From an uncultured Dehalococcoidia bacterium (GTDB lineage Bacteria > Chloroflexota > Dehalococcoidia > Lucifugimonadales > UBA3495): 64,000 nucleotides of DNA. This document shows positions 1-29,202 of this stretch, piece after piece. Under the pieces are notes generated by a model. It worked only from the letters and a program-made list of their open reading frames with translations. It was not told the DNA's origin and ran no database searches. How positions within the stretch are numbered: the first letter of the stretch is position 1; each line of letters opens with the position of its first letter. Location: positions 2,810,981-2,874,980 of the forward strand of contig OY282494.1 in assembly GCA_958296385.1 (NCBI GenBank). The letters are read 5' to 3'. The position numbers and the translations under genes were made by a program.

Positions 1-75
1 AAACTCGGCATCGTTCTCCGTATCCACATCCGCATAAACCACCAGCAAAGCAGCCCCTTTCCTCTCAACCATCAT
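1..75 (-). CDS. Hypothetical protein, 5' end only
   Basis: The first 25 codons of a minus-strand gene run off the left edge of the window. The translation starts MMVERKGAALLVVYADVD and continues with TENDAEF. Two ATG codons are adjacent, and a strong Shine-Dalgarno (GAGGGAGG) lies at about 80-88. The pattern of a hydrophobic strand followed by a Y-x-D-V-D-x-E-x-(D/E)-A-E-F stretch resembles the start of small ferredoxin-fold (dimeric alpha/beta barrel) proteins, but too little is visible to name it. The ATG overlaps the TAA of a weak upstream reading frame. Confidence 0.6.
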   Translation of the reverse strand, partial: MMVERKGAALLVVYADVDTENDAEF

Positions 76-341
76 TACACCTCCCTCTCAATCGCCGCCA
101 TTAAACCACACTTTGCCCCGCAATAGGACAGCCGGGGCTTGTAGTCCCGTGTAAAATAGGCGGTGCCCAGACAGCCAGCTGATTGTTCTACGAAATACGT
201 AGAAATCTGCTGGATTACGGCGGTTCGTTTGGTGACGTAGTTCGTCGCTTTTGCGTGGCAACCCAGCGTTGCACTGATTAGTAAGCTGGCCGCTCCGTTG
301 ACCGCTACCGGCCAGCAAAGTGAAAATTTCTGTGGGCTCAC
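75..341 (-). CDS. Doubtful small reading frame downstream of the helicase remnant
   Basis: An 88-codon frame with a GTG start lies between the end of the helicase remnant and the partial gene at the window edge. Its TAA overlaps the ATG of that partial gene (TAATG), which would fit translational coupling. The product is cysteine-rich, matches no family I recognise, and has no clear ribosome binding site. It may simply be open intergenic sequence left by the decay of this region. No other feature is visible in this stretch. Confidence 0.2.
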   Translation of the reverse strand: MSPQKFSLCWPVAVNGAASLLISATLGCHAKATNYVTKRTAVIQQISTYFVEQSAGCLGTAYFTRDYKPRLSYCGAKCGLMAAIEREV

Positions 342-348
342 CTTCGCA

Positions 349-2986
349 TTATGCAGCGACGATGCCCATTGAGCAGACTATGTGCACGCCACCAGTTGGT
401 GGCCGCCGGGTTTCGCCGCTGTCATTCGGTTTGGGCAGTTCGGATGCCATTGCTGACAGGGCGTTGAGCAGTTGCCGGCCGATGGTGCCGTCGCGCATCA
501 GTGCGCTAATCCGTTCGTTGATGCTGATGGGCAGTTCGGCGGCGGCGGCTTACCCGTCCAGACGCAGTTGGCCCAGCTGAGTATTGACGTACCGCACTAT
601 CCGGTCGGCGCGGCGGTGCGGTTCCGGATTGGCCGGCGGCGCCAGTTTATCAAGCAGGGCCGCCACCGCCGCACTGACGCGGATGTTGGTATCCGACGGC
701 AGCGGAACCGCCGGCGTGTCCGGTTCACATTCTACCTGCCGCACCAGTTCAGCGAGGGCAAGCTCGGCAACGCTGCCCTCAGAGTTGACGGCGTAGCCCT
801 GTCTGACGTCGTTGCGGGCAAGCAGCGTGATGGTTGCGCCGGCGTTGGGCTGATTGCCGGCCGTCATTGCAGCGCGCAGGCCGTCGGGCATCAGCAACAG
901 CCGCTGCCACAGTTCGGGCTGCTCCCGGCGGATACGGTTCAGCAGGGCGTTGGCCTGCTGCGCCAGCGCCAGACTGTCGGTGACGTCATCCTGCTCCTCC
1001 GGCATTTCGCCGTCGTAGATGGAGTAGATGGATTCGGGGTTGACCCGTTCGCCGTTCTCCAAAACTACGTTGTCCAGGCCAATCAGGTCGTGAAACGCCT
1101 GCACCCGGCTCCCGACGGTTTCCCGGATGCTGATTTTGTCCTCCACGGCGGGGTCAGGCATCATATTGTGCAGGTAGATTTCGGCGTGTTCGGTGGTGAT
1201 GCGGTCCACCCGCCCGTGGCGCTGGATGAGCGTTACCGGGTTCCAGTGCAGGTCGTAGCTGACGACCCGGTTGCAGTCTTGCAGGTTTTGCCCCTCGGCG
1301 ATGACGTCGGTGGCAATCAGGATGCGGGTTTGCTCGCCATCCGGCAGGCTCGGCTGGTCGTTGCTGCGGGGCGAGAACCGGGCTACCTTGTCGGCGCTGC
1401 GGCGGTCGCCGCCCATCAGCAAGTCAACGTTGACGCCGAGGTTATCGGCCTTGAGCTGGCGGGACAGGTAGTTGGCGGTCACTTTGGACTCCGTGAATAT
1501 CAGCAGCTTTTCGCCGGCCACGCCGGGCAACTTGACGAAGCTCTTGATCTCGTGGAGTTTGGCGTCGTCGCTGGCGTCACCGTCGGGGTCGGCTTTGATG
1601 CCTTGCAGCGCGTCGGCAACGGCGTTCAGGATGCAGTCGTCGGCATCCAGGTCGTCCAGCCACGCCGAGCAGTCAAAGTCGCTGGCGGCGTAGGATTGCT
1701 CCTTGATCGTGATGCGCGCCTCATCCCGGTCCAGCTCGTCGGTGTCCGGCTCCTCATCGTTGGGCTGGTCGATGGTCAGGATTTCCTCGCTGTCCGTAAC
1801 GCCGTCGTCTTTGTTGACGCCGCCGTTGAGTATCTGATTGCGGAAGTTGCGGTTGCTGTCAATCAGCACCGCCAGCGTGCTGCGAAAAGCGGGGATGGAT
1901 GATTCCAGCCGTTTCCACAGGTTGGTGGTCATAATGCCGGCCAGGTTGCCCCGGTTGCTGCGCACGATGTTGGCGTACTCCGGCTGCTCTCTGGCGTCCT
2001 CGTTCAGGTACTTGGCCGGACGGTAGCGCGCCGCCTGGTACTGTTTCAGCAAGTCGGCGATGCGCTGGATGCCGCCGGCCTTGCGGTACACGTGGTCCAG
2101 GCTGTACTCCCGGTTGGACAGCCTGGCCTGCGGAAAGCGGATGGGCCGCCCGTTCAGGGCGCTGTCCGGGTAGTTGCGCCGGATGTCCTGCCGCCGCCGC
2201 CGTATCAGCACGTGCTGGAGCACGCTGGCAACCTGCGCCGGGTCAGCCCGGCCGATGTCCGATGGGAAGTAGTCGAACAGGCTTCCGGACACGCCGGGCA
2301 GCCCGTGCCCGTGCCGGCTGGGGTCGAGGAACAGCACCAGCTGGTTCAGGATGTCCGTAGGCGCCAGGTTTTGCGGCGTGGCCGACAGCAGGATGACCTT
2401 GTGCCGCCTGGCGCCTTTCAGCAGGTTCAGCAGCACGCGGCGGCGCTGGCTGTTGTTGCGGAACCCGTGGGCCTCGTCAATCAGCACCGGCCCGGCGTGG
2501 CGCAGCATCTTTTGCAGGCTGCGGTCATCAGCGACGCTGGCCTCGGTGAGCCGCCCCCGGCTCAGCACGTCGGCGTCGTGCAGGCCAAATCGGTTGCAGG
2601 CGCGCTCCCACATCTGCCGCAGGCTGGCGGGGCAAATTATCAGCGGATCGCCGGCATCCCGCTCGGCGATATACAAACGGCGCAGGATTTCCGCGCCGAC
2701 GTAAGTCTTGCCCATCCCCATTCTGAGCGGCATGGTAGCCATCCGCAAACTTATGAGGACTATATCCGGCCAGAATCTCCGCACGGGTAGGCGAGTCAGT
2801 CCGGCCAATCAGAATACGCACCCTGCCCGGCCGCACCCCCAGCAAATCCGCAACCTGCGCAAAGCCGGAAAGACAAAAATAACCAACAGCAATATCCACA
2901 CTATGCGGCCGGTCATTAGCCTCAGCAAGTACAGAGCGCAAATGCTCCGCTAACTGCGGGGCGCTATGGGCGTGGAGGATGGTCAT
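349..2986 (-). pseudogene. Degraded PLD-domain SNF2/DEAH helicase
   Basis: The intact ancestor would be a phospholipase-D-like N-terminal domain fused to a SNF2/RapA-like helicase, a type common in defence islands. The N-terminus starts at 2986 (MTILHAHSAPQLAEHLRSVL) and has the PLD-like core AVGYFCLSGF and VRILIGRTDS. Near 2720-2795 the sequence changes frame and jumps directly to the Walker A region (RMGMGKTYVG). The HKD part of the PLD domain and the helicase Q motif are missing, so several hundred bases appear deleted. The helicase frame then contains the DEAH box (VLIDEAHGF), the SATPQN motif and motif VI (QRHGRVDR). A TAA at 550-552 interrupts the frame, and about 66 further plausible codons (AELPISINERISALMRDGT onward) follow in the same frame to a TAA at 349-351. 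Two independent lesions argue for a dead gene. Confidence 0.8.
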
Positions 2987-2997
2987 AGGATACTCAT

Positions 2998-3473
2998 TCA
3001 GATTGCCGTGTCGTCCGTCTCCGGGACTGGCCTTGGTGGTTGAGGTCTCCATCTGGCCATATTGGCTAGATCAAATGCGTATTGTTCCTGCTTCTCCTGA
3101 TTCTCCATCGCCGAATCCGGCAACACGATGTCGGCGTGCTACGGATTGTCGAGCAAAGGCGACTGTTCTACACCGCAACCTGCCTTCCGTACCTGTTCCG
3201 CGCCGACCACTGCCCATCCATAAAAATTGCGCGCCAGGCTGCGTTGCACTCCAACCAAGCGCGCTTTTGCAGCGGCTTCATCCGGCGTTGTGCGATTAAG
3301 CAGGTCAACCGAAATTTTGCACTCGCCAACTCGTTCAAAAAAACCTGATACGGTATCACCCCGGTATTGGCCGCTTTGCGTCACTGGGAGTCCGAGAATA
3401 CGCACCGTCCCAACTCCTCCCATTCGCTTACCGGGCCAAGACCACTGGCAGCATCCGAATCCGCCGATGTCAT
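2998..3473 (-). pseudogene. Broken second gene of a small two-gene unit
   Basis: The start ATG at 3473 overlaps the TGA of the upstream 132-residue gene (ATGA). The first codons read MTSADSDAASGLGPVSEWEE. After about 23 codons the plausible frame moves by one base (near 3400-3405) into GLPVTQSGQYRGDTVSGFFE and then DLLNRTTPDEAAAKARLVGV. A TAG at 3139-3141 interrupts this frame, after which it continues in phase (HADIVLPDSAMENQEKQEQY and on) to a TGA at 2998-3000, only 11 bases before the helicase start. One frameshift plus one nonsense codon indicate inactivation. I do not recognise the family with certainty. The organisation suggests a three-gene operon with the upstream small protein and the PLD helicase. 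Confidence 0.6.
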
Positions 3474-3868
3474 AGGGCCGGTTTCGTATCCAGCGCGGTC
3501 AGCGCTTCGCGGATAAAGCCGTCGGGCAATTCGCGCGCCGTTGAATACCGGGCCCGTCGGTACTCGCCGTCAATGGTGACCATGCAGAGCGCGCCACCGT
3601 CGGAATCGCACGTCACTACCGCTCCACGATCGTTAAGGCCACGAGTATCAATGGCAATGCGGTCACCGGACACCGGATATACGACGAAGCGCCGTGGAAA
3701 GTCGTGGTACATCGCTTGCAACAGGCGTTCAGCGTTGGCAAAGGCCGTCTCAGACGGCACTTCCAGCCCGTCCTCCTCCGCATCCGCAGGCACTTCGTCA
3801 AGTTCCTGCAAAGCATCCGCCAAATCGTCAGGCAGCGCTACTTTACCCCAAACAGCCAATTTGACCAC
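3470..3868 (-). CDS. Conserved-looking small protein, first gene of the helicase unit
   Basis: This encodes an intact 132-residue acidic soluble protein, MVKLAVWGKVALPDDLADAL and on. The middle has an alpha-helical stretch (ETAFANAERLLQAMYHDFPR), followed by beta-rich sequence with CDSDGGALCMVTIDGEYRRA and the end ELPDGFIREALTAL. There is no membrane segment and no catalytic signature I can name. It overlaps the start of the broken downstream gene by four bases, so the pair was translationally coupled. From memory, similar small proteins sit next to helicase or toxin-antitoxin-like genes, but I cannot assign a function. It is the only intact member of its operon. Confidence 0.6.
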   Translation of the reverse strand: MVKLAVWGKVALPDDLADALQELDEVPADAEEDGLEVPSETAFANAERLLQAMYHDFPRRFVVYPVSGDRIAIDTRGLNDRGAVVTCDSDGGALCMVTIDGEYRRARYSTARELPDGFIREALTALDTKPAL

Positions 3869-3922
3869 ACCCCCTTACCGGCTTGCAGCGATTGTACCAT
3901 ACACACCCGCCCCTTGCGGTCG

Positions 3923-4030
3923 CTACCCGGATTCGCTAAGCCGTGGCATATTCCGCTCATTGGCCTCGGCGAGAACGGAACGCAAATGCTCGTTGAACTG
4001 CGGGGCGCTGTGGGCGTGGAGGATGGCCAA
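3923..4030 (-). pseudogene. Leftover start of a second PLD-helicase copy
   Basis: A 35-codon frame starts with TTG immediately after the TAA of the TIR gene and ends at a TAG at 3923-3925. Its protein begins MAILHAHSAPQFNEHLRSVL followed by AEANER. This is almost identical to the start of the helicase at 2986 (MTILHAHSAPQLAEHLRSVL, AEANDR), and the DNA is also closely similar. The similarity stops abruptly, and the following sequence is unrelated. This looks like the stump of a duplicated PLD-helicase gene that once followed the TIR gene in the same operon. Confidence 0.75.
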
Positions 4031-4975
4031 TTACGGCAGTCTCCGAGTCGGTTGATATTGAGAGGCGCTACATCTGTTCAGCTGGTGGCTTTCCCAACAT
4101 CGGTCGCACAGGTCTTGACCGCAAGGTTGGTGGATAACAGTCCACTGCCCCCCTCTGCCGCATCTTTGGCATCTGTCTAGCATGGTCGTACCCCTTTGTG
4201 ACGGCGCGTTTACTTCGGCGGTTCGTTGCTTATCGACGGCGTCGACGGTTTCCTGCTGCGTATCACCATACGGTATGACTGTGCGGATTTCCCGTATCAG
4301 TTTGGTTCGCCATTCGCCTGTTAACTCGATGTAGGCAAGGCCGAGCAAGTTTGTCGGAATCGTAACGCCGGGTTCAACTAGGATTGCCATCCGGCCTTTG
4401 TATTGTTGCAATGCCATGCCTGTTTCCATGTAAGCGTTGAGGCGAGCTCTTTTCTCCCCCTCGAATTCCTCATCTGCCGTCAATACGGCAATGAAAAAAT
4501 CGTTTGCGGCCATGGTTGACAGGAGTTTTTCGGGCAAAGTTTGCCCTTGATTGGGTTGCTCCATCATACGCACGGGGGTAATACCTATCATACGGCAAGT
4601 TTCCTCGACTTGCGGTACGTACCCGTTGGGATCGCTCCCGTGTGCGATGAATGCTGTTGGGTCGGTTTTGGATGGATGCGCCATGCCGACATTCTCATCT
4701 AGCAGGGCGCGGCCATCATCCGTAAGGTTATAGGCATATATGCCTAGGGGGGTGATGTGGCTACTAGGATCCCAGAAAGGGTCGGGGTGGCTAATCAGTC
4801 CATATCTGTGGAGAGTCACGGTATCCTGTCTCTCCTGGCTAGTCATATCGAAATTGAAGGACCGATAGTGATTATGAGCTGCATCCGTAGCATCGGGATC
4901 TCCTGCTTCGTAATCCGCCAGTTGTTGGAGTAGTTCAATCAAGCGACGCATTTGCGTATCAGGGATTTGAAACAT
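4031..4975 (-). CDS. TIR-like nucleotide-binding effector with C-terminal zinc finger
   Basis: This encodes a 314-residue protein starting at MFQIPDTQM, chosen because AAGGAG lies about ten bases upstream; an upstream in-frame start lacks a site. Residues 1-100 look like a winged-helix or helical module (ITPLGIYAYNLTDDGRALL). Residues about 110-225 match the predicted nucleotide-binding TIR-like family (PF10137, CAP12/Pycsar TIR type). They have a strand FIAHGS, then VEETCRMIGITPVRMMEQPN, a TLPEKLL helix carrying the family glutamate, and MAILVEPGVTIPTNLLGLAY. Family members cleave NAD+ in CBASS- or Pycsar-type antiphage defence. The C-terminus has CxxC, CxxxLCxxCW and HxxNRC, a probable treble-clef or B-box-like zinc site. 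No cyclase partner is visible in the window, so the trigger is unknown. It appears intact amid decayed neighbours. Confidence 0.75.
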   Translation of the reverse strand: MFQIPDTQMRRLIELLQQLADYEAGDPDATDAAHNHYRSFNFDMTSQERQDTVTLHRYGLISHPDPFWDPSSHITPLGIYAYNLTDDGRALLDENVGMAHPSKTDPTAFIAHGSDPNGYVPQVEETCRMIGITPVRMMEQPNQGQTLPEKLLSTMAANDFFIAVLTADEEFEGEKRARLNAYMETGMALQQYKGRMAILVEPGVTIPTNLLGLAYIELTGEWRTKLIREIRTVIPYGDTQQETVDAVDKQRTAEVNAPSQRGTTMLDRCQRCGRGGQWTVIHQPCGQDLCDRCWESHQLNRCSASQYQPTRRLP

Positions 4976-24616: not shown

Positions 24617-25165
24617 ATGAGCATAACTGATGACGCCGCCGCCAGCGCCGCTATGGAACAGCGCGTGCGCGCCGCCCTGTCCCATCTGTCCATCGCCGGT
24701 TGGGAATGGATTGCCATTGACCCCCAATTTGGCGATACCGCCGACTTTTGCGCCGAGTACGGCTACGACCTGCCCCACTCTGCCAACACCATCGTCGTCG
24801 CCAGCAAGCGCGGCCCCGCCGCCTACGCCGCCTGCATCGTCCGCGCCAGCGACCGCCTCGACGTCAACCGACGCGTCCGCCGGCTCATGGGCGTCTCCCG
24901 CGCCTCCTTCGCCGACCCCGACGAAACCCGCACCGTAACCGGCATGATGATTGGCGGCGTAACCGCCCTCGCCCTCCCCGACAACCTCCCCATCTACGCC
25001 GACCGGCGCCTCCTCGAAATGGACTACGTCATACTAGGCGCCGGCAGCCGCTCCGCCAAACTGGCAATGCCCCCCGCCGAACTAAACAAAATCCCCAACC
25101 TCCAATTCATCGACGGCCTCTCCATCGCCGCCGATGCTGCCGATGCTGCCGATGCTGCCGAATGA
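24617..25165 (+). CDS. YbaK/EbsC-like aminoacyl-tRNA deacylase family protein
   Basis: This encodes a 182-residue protein. The PF04073 (tRNA_edit) core covers residues about 55-165: NTIVVASKRGPAAYAACIVR, then RVRRLMGVSRASFADPDETR, TVTGMMIGGVTALALPDNLP and YADRRLLEMDYVILGAGSRS. Members deacylate mischarged tRNAs such as Cys-tRNA(Pro) or act on related ligands. The C-terminus ends in a short Ala-Ala-Asp repeat encoded by a 9-base tandem repeat (GCCGATGCT, about four copies at 25129-25160), a site prone to slippage. The N-terminal extension is not conserved in the family as I know it. Confidence 0.75.
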   Translation: MSITDDAAASAAMEQRVRAALSHLSIAGWEWIAIDPQFGDTADFCAEYGYDLPHSANTIVVASKRGPAAYAACIVRASDRLDVNRRVRRLMGVSRASFADPDETRTVTGMMIGGVTALALPDNLPIYADRRLLEMDYVILGAGSRSAKLAMPPAELNKIPNLQFIDGLSIAADAADAADAAE

Positions 25166-25191
25166 CCGCGCCCGGCAGTGACACTAGCCCG

Positions 25192-25221
25192 TTGACCCGC
25201 CAGCCGGTTCCCCCCTACAAT
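25192..25221 (+). promoter_or_regulatory. Sigma70-like promoter of the rhodanese gene
   Basis: TTGACC at 25192-25197 and TACAAT at 25216-25221 are separated by 18 bases, one of the few complete -35/-10 pairs in this window. CAGGAG lies before the ATG at 25285. Confidence 0.5.
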
Positions 25222-25284
25222 CCGCCCTACGCCTAATCCTCTCATGTAATCCTCTGATGAGATACCCCATTCAGGAGACACCCC

Positions 25285-26118
25285 ATGACTTCCCCCGACG
25301 CCTACGCCCATCCCGAATACCTGACCGACCCCGATTGGGTTGCCGCCCATCTGGACGACCCCAACGTAGTCGTCCTCGACTGCAACAACAACGACGCCTG
25401 GCAGCGCGGCCACATCCCCGGCGCCGTAATAGTTCCCGACAACTGGGCCAAAGACCCCGACACCGGCCGCCGCCACGTAATGACCCCGGCCCAGTTCAAG
25501 GCCATGGCCGAGGGCATGGGCATCGGCGACGCTACCACCGTCGTCACCTACGACCACGCCCAGGGCCTCACGTCGGCGCGGATGTGGTGGGTGTTCAACT
25601 ACTACGGCCACCGCAGCGTTATGGTGCTCAACGGCGGCTGGCGGCGCTGGGTTGCCGCCGGCCAAACCGTAAGTTTCGACCGCCCCAAGCCCGCCGCCGC
25701 CGTAACTTTCACCCCCCAGGCCGACGCGTCCTACATCGTCACCGGCGATGCGCTCAAGGCCGCCTGCACCCTGGACAACGTAGTAGTGTGGGACGTCCGC
25801 AGCGACGCCGAGTGGGACGGCACGGCGCAGAACTACCCCAATCAACGCCCCGGACACGTCCCCGGCGCCGCCCACCTGGAATGGTTCCATCTGATGGACC
25901 GGCACACCCATATGTTCAAGCCCGCCGCCGAAATCCGCCGCATCCTCGCCGAACACGGCATCACCCCCGACAAAACCGCCTATTCCTATTGACAGGCCGG
26001 CATCCGTGCGGCGCACGGCAACTTCGTACTCCGCCTCGTCGGTTTCGAGAACGCCCGCAACTACGACGCCTCCATGGGCGAATGGGCCAACCGGGAGGAC
26101 ACGCCCCTAACGGTATAA
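25285..26118 (+). CDS. Two-domain rhodanese (thiosulfate sulfurtransferase) with in-frame UGA at the catalytic Cys
   Basis: Read through UGA, this is a 277-residue tandem rhodanese. The inactive N-domain contains WQRGHIPGAVIVPDNW and VVTYDHAQGLTSARMWW, with Asp in place of Cys. The C-domain contains VVWDVRSDAEWDGTAQNY and RPGHVPGAAHLEWFHLM. The active-site loop at codon 236 reads YSY-UGA-QAGIRAAHGNF, whereas family members have Cys at that exact position (CxxGxR). The frame then stays open for 41 normal codons (LRLVGFENARNYDASMGEWA) to a TAA at 26116-26118. UGA at the catalytic residue, flanked by conserved sequence, fits selenocysteine; a nonsense mutation is the alternative. If translation stops at UGA, the product has 235 residues and no catalytic residue. 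Confidence 0.75.
26004..26018 (+). promoter_or_regulatory. Candidate bacterial SECIS hairpin
   Basis: CCGTGC and GCACGG form a perfect 6-base-pair stem with the loop GGC starting 18 bases after the UGA at 25990-25992. As I recall the bacterial SECIS rules, the apical loop should lie about 16-37 bases after UGA and have a G in its first two positions; this hairpin meets both. GC-rich hairpins are common in this DNA, so on its own it is weak evidence. Confidence 0.4.
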
Positions 26119-26145
26119 GACTGCCCATCGGTGTGAGCGGATAAA

Positions 26146-26720: not shown

Positions 26721-28943
26721 TCAGGGCGCAGTTTGCCGCAGCGGGCTGCTGGTCACCCGGCTTACCGACGTCACCCCCCGGATGCCCTCTATCCGGGAGA
26801 ATACCCGGTTCAATTCGGTAAGCCCGGTAATGTGTATCGTCAGTTCCATGCTAACGGTAGCGTCCGCGTTCTCCCGCGTCACCACCCACGCAATGTTGAT
26901 TTTGTCCTCCGACACCTTGGTAGTAACGTCCCGCAGCAGCCCTACCCGGTCGATGGCCTCGATGCGCAAGCGCACCGGGTAAAGCTCCTGCTTTTGCCCC
27001 CACGACACCGGCACCAGCCGCTCCTTTTCGTCCTCGTTCCGCACGTTGATACATTCGGCTTTATGGACGCTAACCCCCCGTGAGCGGGTAACAAACCCGA
27101 GGATGGCATCCCCTTGTATCGGACTGCAACAAGCCGCAATTCGCGTCAGCAAGTCGCCCACGCCCAGCACCGTGATACCCGACGACGGGCTGTCCAGCGG
27201 CACCTTGCCGGTCATGCGCGGCATCCAGTGGTCGTCTTCGGCGCCGCCTCGCAGCTGCGTCAGCCGGTGCGACAGTGCGGAGTCGCTCAGCTCGCCGGAG
27301 CCCAGCGCGGCCAGCAGGTCTTCCATCGTTTCGTACCGGCACAACGCCAGCACTTCCCGGTCGCCCAGCTTCAGCCCCATCCGGTGCATCTCCCGCCGCA
27401 GCAGCTCCCGCCCCCGCGTCACGTTGGCGCTGCGGGCCTGCCGGTTGAACCACGACCGAATCTTCTGCCGCGCGCTGTTCGTCGCCACGTACCCCCGCGA
27501 CGGATTCAGCCAGTCCGGGGACGGCCCCCGCCCCGTCTTGCCCGCCACCACCTCAACCGTATCTCCGTTCTGCAAAGGCGAGTCCAGCGACACCAGCCGT
27601 CCGTTGACCTTGGCCCCGGAGATGCGATGCCCCAAATCGGTGTGAATCTTGTAGGCAAAATCTATGGGCGTAGCCCCGGCCGCCAGCTCCATAATGTCGC
27701 CTTTCGGCGTGTACACAAAAACCTGGTCGTGGAACAAATCCTCCCGCACCGACTCCAGAAACTCGTTGGTGTCCGGCGTTTCCCGCTGCCATTCCAGCAG
27801 CTGCCGCAGCCAGGTCATCCGCTCCTCAAACCGCTCGCTGCTGCCGTTCGCCCCCGCCCGTTCCTTGTAGCGCCAGTGCGCCGCCACGCCGTACTCGGCG
27901 ATGCGGTGCATCTCCGCAGTCTTAATCTGCACCTCCAGCGGATGCCCGCCGTCGCAAATCACGGTGGTATGCAGCGACTGGTACAGGTTCTTTTTCGGCG
28001 TGGCGATATAGTCGTCAAACTGCCCGGGCATCGGGTTCCACATCCGGTGCGCAATCCCCAGCGCCTTGTAGCAGTCGGCAACGTCATCCACAATCACCCG
28101 CAGCGCGTACAGGTCATAAATATCGCCGAGTTCTTTCCCCTCAGCGGCATATTTCTCAATCTTGTTATGGATGGAGTAAATCCCCTTGGGCCGCCCGCTA
28201 ACCTCTGCGTTCAGCCCGTTGACGGCCAACTCGTCGCTCAGATGGACGGCTACCTGGGCAACGTAGGTTTCCCGCTCCGAACGCCGCACCGCCAGCATCC
28301 GCGACAGCTCCCGATACCGGGCCTCGTTCAGATGACGAAACGCCAAATCATCCAGCTGCCATTTCAACTCCCAGATGCCCAGCCGATGGGCCAGCGGCGA
28401 ATAAACGTCCAGAGTTTCCTGAGCGATGCGCCGTCGTTTGTCCTCCGGCAGCGCGTCCAGCGTCCGCATATTGTGCAGCCGGTCGGCCAGCTTAATCAGC
28501 ACCACGCGGATGTCCTCCGCCATTGACACCAGCATTTTGCGCAGGCTTTCGGCGTACAGATTCTCCACGTCGTTATCGGCGGCCAGCGGGTGCGGCCGAG
28601 GACGGTAATCAACCCTGGTCAGCTTGGTGACGCCGTCCACCAGACGGGCTACGTCTTTGCCAAAGCGCCGTTCCAGTTCGTCCAGCGTAACGCCGCAATC
28701 CTCAACGACGTCGTGCAGCAAAGCGGCGATGATGGTATCCGGGTCCAGGTGCAAGTCGGCCAGTATCACGGCGGCCGCCAGCGGATGGACGATGTACGGC
28801 TCCCCCGACAGCCGCCGCTGTCCGTCGTGGCTCCGGGCCGCAAACTCGTAAGCGTCCTGTATCTTGCCCAGCTGGCCCGGCTCGTCAACGTACTCCGACA
28901 CCCGGCCAATAAGATCGGTAGATTCGCTGGCAACGGCAACCAT
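26721..28943 (-). CDS. rel: Bifunctional (p)ppGpp synthetase/hydrolase, RelA/SpoT family
   Basis: This encodes a 740-residue stringent-response enzyme. ATG at 28943 was chosen because GGAGG lies six bases upstream. The HD hydrolase domain contains AARSHDGQRRLSGEPYIVHP and LLHDVVED. The synthetase domain contains DIYDLYALRVIVDDVADCY and YQSLHTTVICDGGHPLEVQI. The TGS domain spans about residues 395-460 (DQVFVYTPKGDIMELAAGAT), then the helical and conserved-cysteine regions (ACCSPIQGDAILGFVTRSRG), and a C-terminal ACT domain (RLRIEAIDRVGLLRDVTTKV). The HDxxED motif is intact, so hydrolase activity is expected. Confidence 0.95.
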   Translation of the reverse strand: MVAVASESTDLIGRVSEYVDEPGQLGKIQDAYEFAARSHDGQRRLSGEPYIVHPLAAAVILADLHLDPDTIIAALLHDVVEDCGVTLDELERRFGKDVARLVDGVTKLTRVDYRPRPHPLAADNDVENLYAESLRKMLVSMAEDIRVVLIKLADRLHNMRTLDALPEDKRRRIAQETLDVYSPLAHRLGIWELKWQLDDLAFRHLNEARYRELSRMLAVRRSERETYVAQVAVHLSDELAVNGLNAEVSGRPKGIYSIHNKIEKYAAEGKELGDIYDLYALRVIVDDVADCYKALGIAHRMWNPMPGQFDDYIATPKKNLYQSLHTTVICDGGHPLEVQIKTAEMHRIAEYGVAAHWRYKERAGANGSSERFEERMTWLRQLLEWQRETPDTNEFLESVREDLFHDQVFVYTPKGDIMELAAGATPIDFAYKIHTDLGHRISGAKVNGRLVSLDSPLQNGDTVEVVAGKTGRGPSPDWLNPSRGYVATNSARQKIRSWFNRQARSANVTRGRELLRREMHRMGLKLGDREVLALCRYETMEDLLAALGSGELSDSALSHRLTQLRGGAEDDHWMPRMTGKVPLDSPSSGITVLGVGDLLTRIAACCSPIQGDAILGFVTRSRGVSVHKAECINVRNEDEKERLVPVSWGQKQELYPVRLRIEAIDRVGLLRDVTTKVSEDKINIAWVVTRENADATVSMELTIHITGLTELNRVFSRIEGIRGVTSVSRVTSSPLRQTAP

Positions 28944-29202
28944 CGCCACCCTCCTGGCGCAGCCGCCCTACCCCTGGCGCGTGCGGCGCGGCTAACCTGT
29001 TCACTGATACCCTGTTGCAAGGATGATAACCACTAGCGCCAGCAATGTCTAGCGCACCCAACCCCAACCCTCGCCCCTTTCCACCCATCACAGACATCGC
29101 AACGCCATACAAAATCCTGCCGCCATACTGCTAGAATAGGACGGGTGGATTAGGATGGGCAATCAGGCTAACCCGACTTGGCGTTGCTAACGCCCGGAGA
29201 TT

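Follow-up and report, generated by a model that had tools for sequence, protein, structure and literature searches.

This locus raises the question of whether an in-frame UGA, standing where a rhodanese carries its catalytic cysteine, is decoded as selenocysteine (Sec) or interrupts the gene. The first-pass annotation of the window (the whole stretch of 64,000 nucleotides that was analysed, from an uncultured Dehalococcoidia bacterium) had proposed a candidate selenoprotein, and this reading gained support from the conservation of the UGA, the sel genes of the genome and a covarying hairpin. Of the observations named there as contrary to it (a genome without sel genes, sister-strain homologues all with TGC/TGT beside other lesions in this strain, or reads with TGC), none was encountered as far as they were testable. 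Judged from comparative sequence data, the rhodanese at 25285-26118 is very probably a genuine selenoprotein.

Reading frame and domain organization

The features of the locus are as follows.

25285-26118, plus strand: predicted selenoprotein gene, two-domain rhodanese/thiosulfate sulfurtransferase of 277 residues with Sec at codon 236 (open frame on either side of the TGA, Pfam, solved relatives, predicted fold)
25330-25656, plus strand: N-terminal rhodanese domain of the catalytically inactive type, with Asp90 in the nucleophile's place (Pfam, residues 16-124)
25990-25992, plus strand: in-frame UGA where the C-terminal rhodanese domain has its catalytic nucleophile, putatively read as selenocysteine; loop motif UQAGIR (TGA in the window and 80 relatives versus TGC/TGT in 89 Cys homologues)
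26004-26018, plus strand: predicted bSECIS hairpin with a CCGUGC/GCACGG stem and GGC as its apical loop, the loop lying 17 nt from the UGA (pairing in relatives, covariation, published bSECIS constraints)
26116-26118, plus strand: TAA, the genuine stop of the selenoprotein gene (translation)

The translation runs through 235 residues to the TGA and through a further 41 codons to the TAA, the frame being open on both sides as had been claimed, and no lesion other than the in-frame TGA was found in the gene. With the TGA read through, Pfam Rhodanese (PF00581) matched at 1.9e-32 in two stretches; without the 3' part it matched in one stretch only. The TGA was aligned with the invariant catalytic Cys in all aligned Cys homologues (column C236 of alignment A1), which bears out its earlier placement on the catalytic cysteine. 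The active-site loop reads U-Q-A/G-G-I-R, and Asp occupies position 90 in 78 of the 80 TGA relatives, matching two-domain rhodaneses whose first domain is inactive. The protein thus has the organization of a two-domain rhodanese, with two rhodanese domains, the nucleophile in the C-terminal one and a predicted rhodanese fold. Cys161 was considered as a resolving residue and rejected; it is constant in the close group only and replaced by I, V or L in most other TGA relatives, and is therefore not part of a general mechanism. The overlapping open reading frames at 25257-26144 (plus strand) and 25024-26016 (minus strand) were without family match.

The residues after the UGA are strongly conserved as protein, and in each of the 15 close relatives the 3' extension is 41 codons long. 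This bears on the possibility that the UGA is mostly a real stop and that the functional product is a 235-residue regulatory or binding protein lacking the nucleophile and the last helices. Sec insertion is generally inefficient and selenium-dependent, and some truncated product is therefore to be expected. However, conservation of the last 41 codons is high, YDASMGEW being the same in every aligned sequence, and the truncated protein would have no active-site loop. A functional truncation is hence considered very improbable.

Distribution of UGA and Cys codons among relatives

The first-pass annotation had suggested examining codon 236 in close homologues. In the genome collection, TGA was present at this codon in all 15 Chloroflexota relatives (57-86% identity), not TGC or TGT, while TGC/TGT occurred in 66 homologues at 26-38% identity, 64 of them from other phyla (the two rhodanese paralogues L002 and L003 were part of the search behind these 66, and L002 was the one read). 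When the wider class was included, the number of UGA relatives rose to 80, down to 34% identity and from many families of the class, as against 89 Cys homologues with TGC/TGT in the same column.

A homologue at E <= 1e-40 was found in at least 147 of the 294 genomes of the class, and at least 64 of the 294 had a copy with one in-frame TGA, the other listed matches being without TGA. Among the matches listed, selA was found in 60 of the 64 genomes with a TGA copy versus 137 of the other 230 (Fisher p 2e-8, a value that ignores relatedness). The four TGA-copy genomes without selA have a completeness of 71-81%, and in three of the four tRNA-Sec gave a strong match. The TGA form is not confined to this class; copies were present in further classes of the phylum as well. 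When the active-site and SECIS columns were masked before tree building, the resulting tree required at least five changes between TGA and Cys, three of which are forced by well-supported branches. Several genomes have more than one rhodanese copy (e.g., G025, G056 and G029), and G056 and G029 combine a TGA copy with a stop-free copy. In the plasmid search, only homologues of less than 60% identity were found.

The distribution of the codon is decisive for the alternative that the first-pass annotation had itself put forward, namely that a nonsense mutation turned a Cys codon (TGC/TGT) into TGA and made the gene a recent pseudogene. Other apparent nonsense codons in the window had been pointed out there, and the one near 550 does seem to break a longer minus-strand frame. 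However, the TGA of the rhodanese is common to 80 other loci from many families, down to 34% identity, and this conservation in distant relatives refutes a recent mutation. Moreover, the 3' part has been kept as protein and the hairpin as RNA, and the gene in the window carries no other lesion. The probability left to a nonsense mutation is vanishingly small.

The predicted SECIS hairpin

A SECIS-like hairpin had been noted 3' of the UGA and was confirmed at exactly 26004-26018. The sequence CCGTGC-GGC-GCACGG forms 6 bp with a 3-nt loop and an energy of -8.0 kcal/mol for the 15-mer alone. The published bSECIS model calls for a loop of 3-9 nt with a G in its first two positions, a stem of 4-16 bp, a distance of 16-37 nt from the UGA and a minimum free energy (MFE) of -7.5 or lower, and the hairpin agrees with it on all five counts. 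The predicted minimum-energy fold of the window RNA depends on the flanks included: the hairpin was contained in the fold of a 45-nt slice, but a 42-nt slice folded differently.

Comparison with the relatives argues that the hairpin is maintained as RNA. Its nucleotides, including those at synonymous sites, are identical in 15 of 15 Chloroflexota homologues at 57-86% identity; together with the TGA in all of them, this excludes chance. All six stem pairs are formed in 77 of the 81 TGA loci (80 distinct stretches) versus none of the 89 Cys homologues, 30 of which have Gln after the Cys, and the MFE threshold is reached within a 19-nt stretch in 76 of 81 and 0 of 89, respectively. The R-A-A-H residues are encoded by CGT GCG GCG CAC in 75-77 TGA genes; Cys genes that encode this peptide vary their codons among CGC/CGG/CGT, GCC/GCG and CAC/CAT. 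Covariation was seen at the basal pair, which is C-G in 61 loci, G-C in 14 and A-U in 2, while the encoded residues vary (I/V/M/G with G/A/V). Pairing at this position in 77 loci compares with a mean of 51.7 after shuffling, and none of 20000 shuffles, which ignore relatedness, was as high; the type of pair changed at least six times on the masked-column tree.

In six TGA rhodaneses (L161, L165, L182, L183, L185 and L187) the SECIS letters differ, yet a fold forms at roughly the corresponding position. L161 and L182, for instance, have GGCCGC-GUUC-GCGGCC and CGCCGC-GUUG-GCGGCG, and L187 (33.9% identity) has a CGG/GGU-like loop on a bulged stem. The SECIS sequence pattern occurred once in the genome and not at all in viral contigs; nothing thus points to a mobile or repeated element.

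Selenocysteine machinery of the genome

The genome is a single contig of 3.30 Mb, close to Dehalococcoidia/SAR202 judging by its nearest relatives. It was searched for the sel genes, as had been recommended, and all four were present above the curated cut-offs: selA (537 bits, cut-off 268), selB (357, cut-off 242), selD (374, cut-off 125) and the tRNA-Sec gene selC (66, cut-off 47), whose anticodon was identified as UCA by ARAGORN. The selD gene (L103, G000:C1:1766127-1767047, minus strand) carries a TGA in frame close to its N-terminus (HCAG-TGA-AAKL), as is the case in known Sec-containing SelD proteins, and the selenophosphate synthetase of this genome is accordingly predicted to be itself a selenoprotein.

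A further explanation is that UGA has come to mean Cys or some other residue, throughout the genome or by way of a special tRNA, in which case the protein would hold Cys; the occupation of a Cys position by UGA is compatible with this. However, the neighbouring aminoacyl-tRNA-editing gene terminates at TGA 25163-25165, a tRNA-Sec with the anticodon UCA is present (from a non-exhaustive search for UCA tRNAs), and general recoding would need no hairpin, yet the hairpin was found only with the TGA codon. Reassignment is thus highly unlikely, and both it and a nonsense mutation are effectively excluded.

We infer selenocysteine insertion from the UGA at the Cys position, the Sec machinery, the bSECIS with its covarying stem, the conservation of the codon in 80 further loci and the predicted fold. 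SelA and SelD would make Sec-tRNA(UCA); SelB carrying it would bind the hairpin at 26004-26018 just 3' of the UGA, and the ribosome would owing to the bound SelB decode UGA 25990-25992 as selenocysteine. The product would be a two-domain rhodanese with a Sec nucleophile.

Genomic surroundings

The neighbours were compared in 16 loci and offered no functional hint. A relA/spoT-type (p)ppGpp synthetase/hydrolase gene lies downstream (26724-28949, minus strand), a position conserved only in the closest relatives, and since the shared neighbours are common only to close relatives, no functional link is indicated. At the start of the window, a helicase-like frame on the minus strand (2808 to about 550) meets a stop at 550, past which it runs on uninterrupted for some 70 codons, and the stretch 2700-4100 contains broken frames in which the motif HLRSVLAEAN recurs. 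The genes at 1-4100 appear to be degraded, independently of the selenoprotein.

Predicted structure and function

By sequence, the closest solved structures are 1uar, the rhodanese of Thermus thermophilus (4e-42), and thiosulfate sulfurtransferases of mycobacteria such as CysA3 of Mycobacterium tuberculosis. An AlphaFold2 model built with Cys at 236 (pLDDT 88) gave TM scores of 0.89-0.91 to these structures. In the wider set of Cys two-domain rhodaneses (1uar; M. tuberculosis CysA3, CysA2 and SseA, 3aay, 3hwi and 3hzu; Azotobacter vinelandii RhdA, 1e0c), TM scores were 0.85-0.91 at 26-33% identity. Their nucleophile is at the same position but is Cys, there is no UGA, and the loop sequences are different (CRIAER in 1uar).

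The rhodanese nucleophile carries sulfane sulfur, and sulfur transfer via Se-bound sulfane sulfur is the likely function here. By analogy with Cys rhodaneses, Sec would attack the compound that donates the sulfane sulfur, be it thiosulfate, mercaptopyruvate or a persulfide, the sulfur would be held as an Se-S adduct in the UQ[AG]GIR loop, and it may then be passed to a thiol or other acceptor.

Comparison with known systems

Among the 15 families described from the Sargasso Sea in 2005 (PMC1088965) was a rhodanese-related selenoprotein of COG2897; it was found again in the GOS study of 2008 (PMC2398784) and appears in a 2022 review as MQG53192.1 (PMC9312934) and in a 2026 review as 'rhodanese-like form 4' with UxxG, MCY3690685.1 (PMC13188914). 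Compared with the published description, which its motif and fold match, the protein described here resembles this selenoprotein in COG class (SseA type), rhodanese fold, putative Sec in UxxG (here UQAG/UQGG) and a predicted bSECIS downstream. Those reports concern single or few marine sequences, in contrast to the class-wide spread found here, and the texts searched on the COG2897 rhodanese selenoprotein make no mention of Chloroflexota, an invariant SECIS or a class-wide distribution. A literature search combining SAR202 with selenocysteine returned no paper on a Sec rhodanese gene, and no curated model for the COG2897/form 4 rhodanese selenoprotein was found. In one study, SelA and SelB were reported to be common in the genomes of sponge symbionts (PMC5649159).

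The Escherichia coli 3-mercaptopyruvate sulfurtransferase SseA (1urh) is alike in two-domain layout and general chemistry. However, the score against the SseA equivalog NF008557 (101.5 bits versus a cut-off of 250) places the window rhodanese outside that equivalog, and its loop is UQAGIR rather than the CGSGVT of E. coli SseA. Two other models describe rhodanese domains tied to selenium, the ExtH selenite/tellurite-reduction rhodanese (NF040901) and the rhodanese_LYCAU (seleno)protein (NF041203); they differ in model length and were rejected with 82 bits versus 200 and 42 versus 115.

Implications

The rhodanese selenoprotein family was already known or predicted, and the gene in the window is well supported as a selenoprotein and probably a further member of this family. 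What is added is the wide distribution in Dehalococcoidia, the almost frozen SECIS and the repeated switches between Sec and Cys. An unlikely but conceivable extension is that the Dehalococcoidia Sec rhodanese is old and widely inherited, has a near-fixed SECIS (CGUGCG[G/U]CGCAC in most of the 81 loci), which would imply a lineage-particular SelB specificity, and could serve as an Se/S carrier feeding the Sec-containing SelD, not as a cyanide/thiosulfate enzyme. Because standard gene callers will end the gene at the UGA, without the active site, mis-annotation is likely across a large bacterial class. The class also provides a natural experiment, in which one enzyme occurs with Sec or Cys in related genomes and the SECIS is present or absent to match; it is thus suited to the study of Sec retention and loss, of what SelB demands of a SECIS in bacteria other than E. 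coli, and of the benefit of selenium to a sulfurtransferase.
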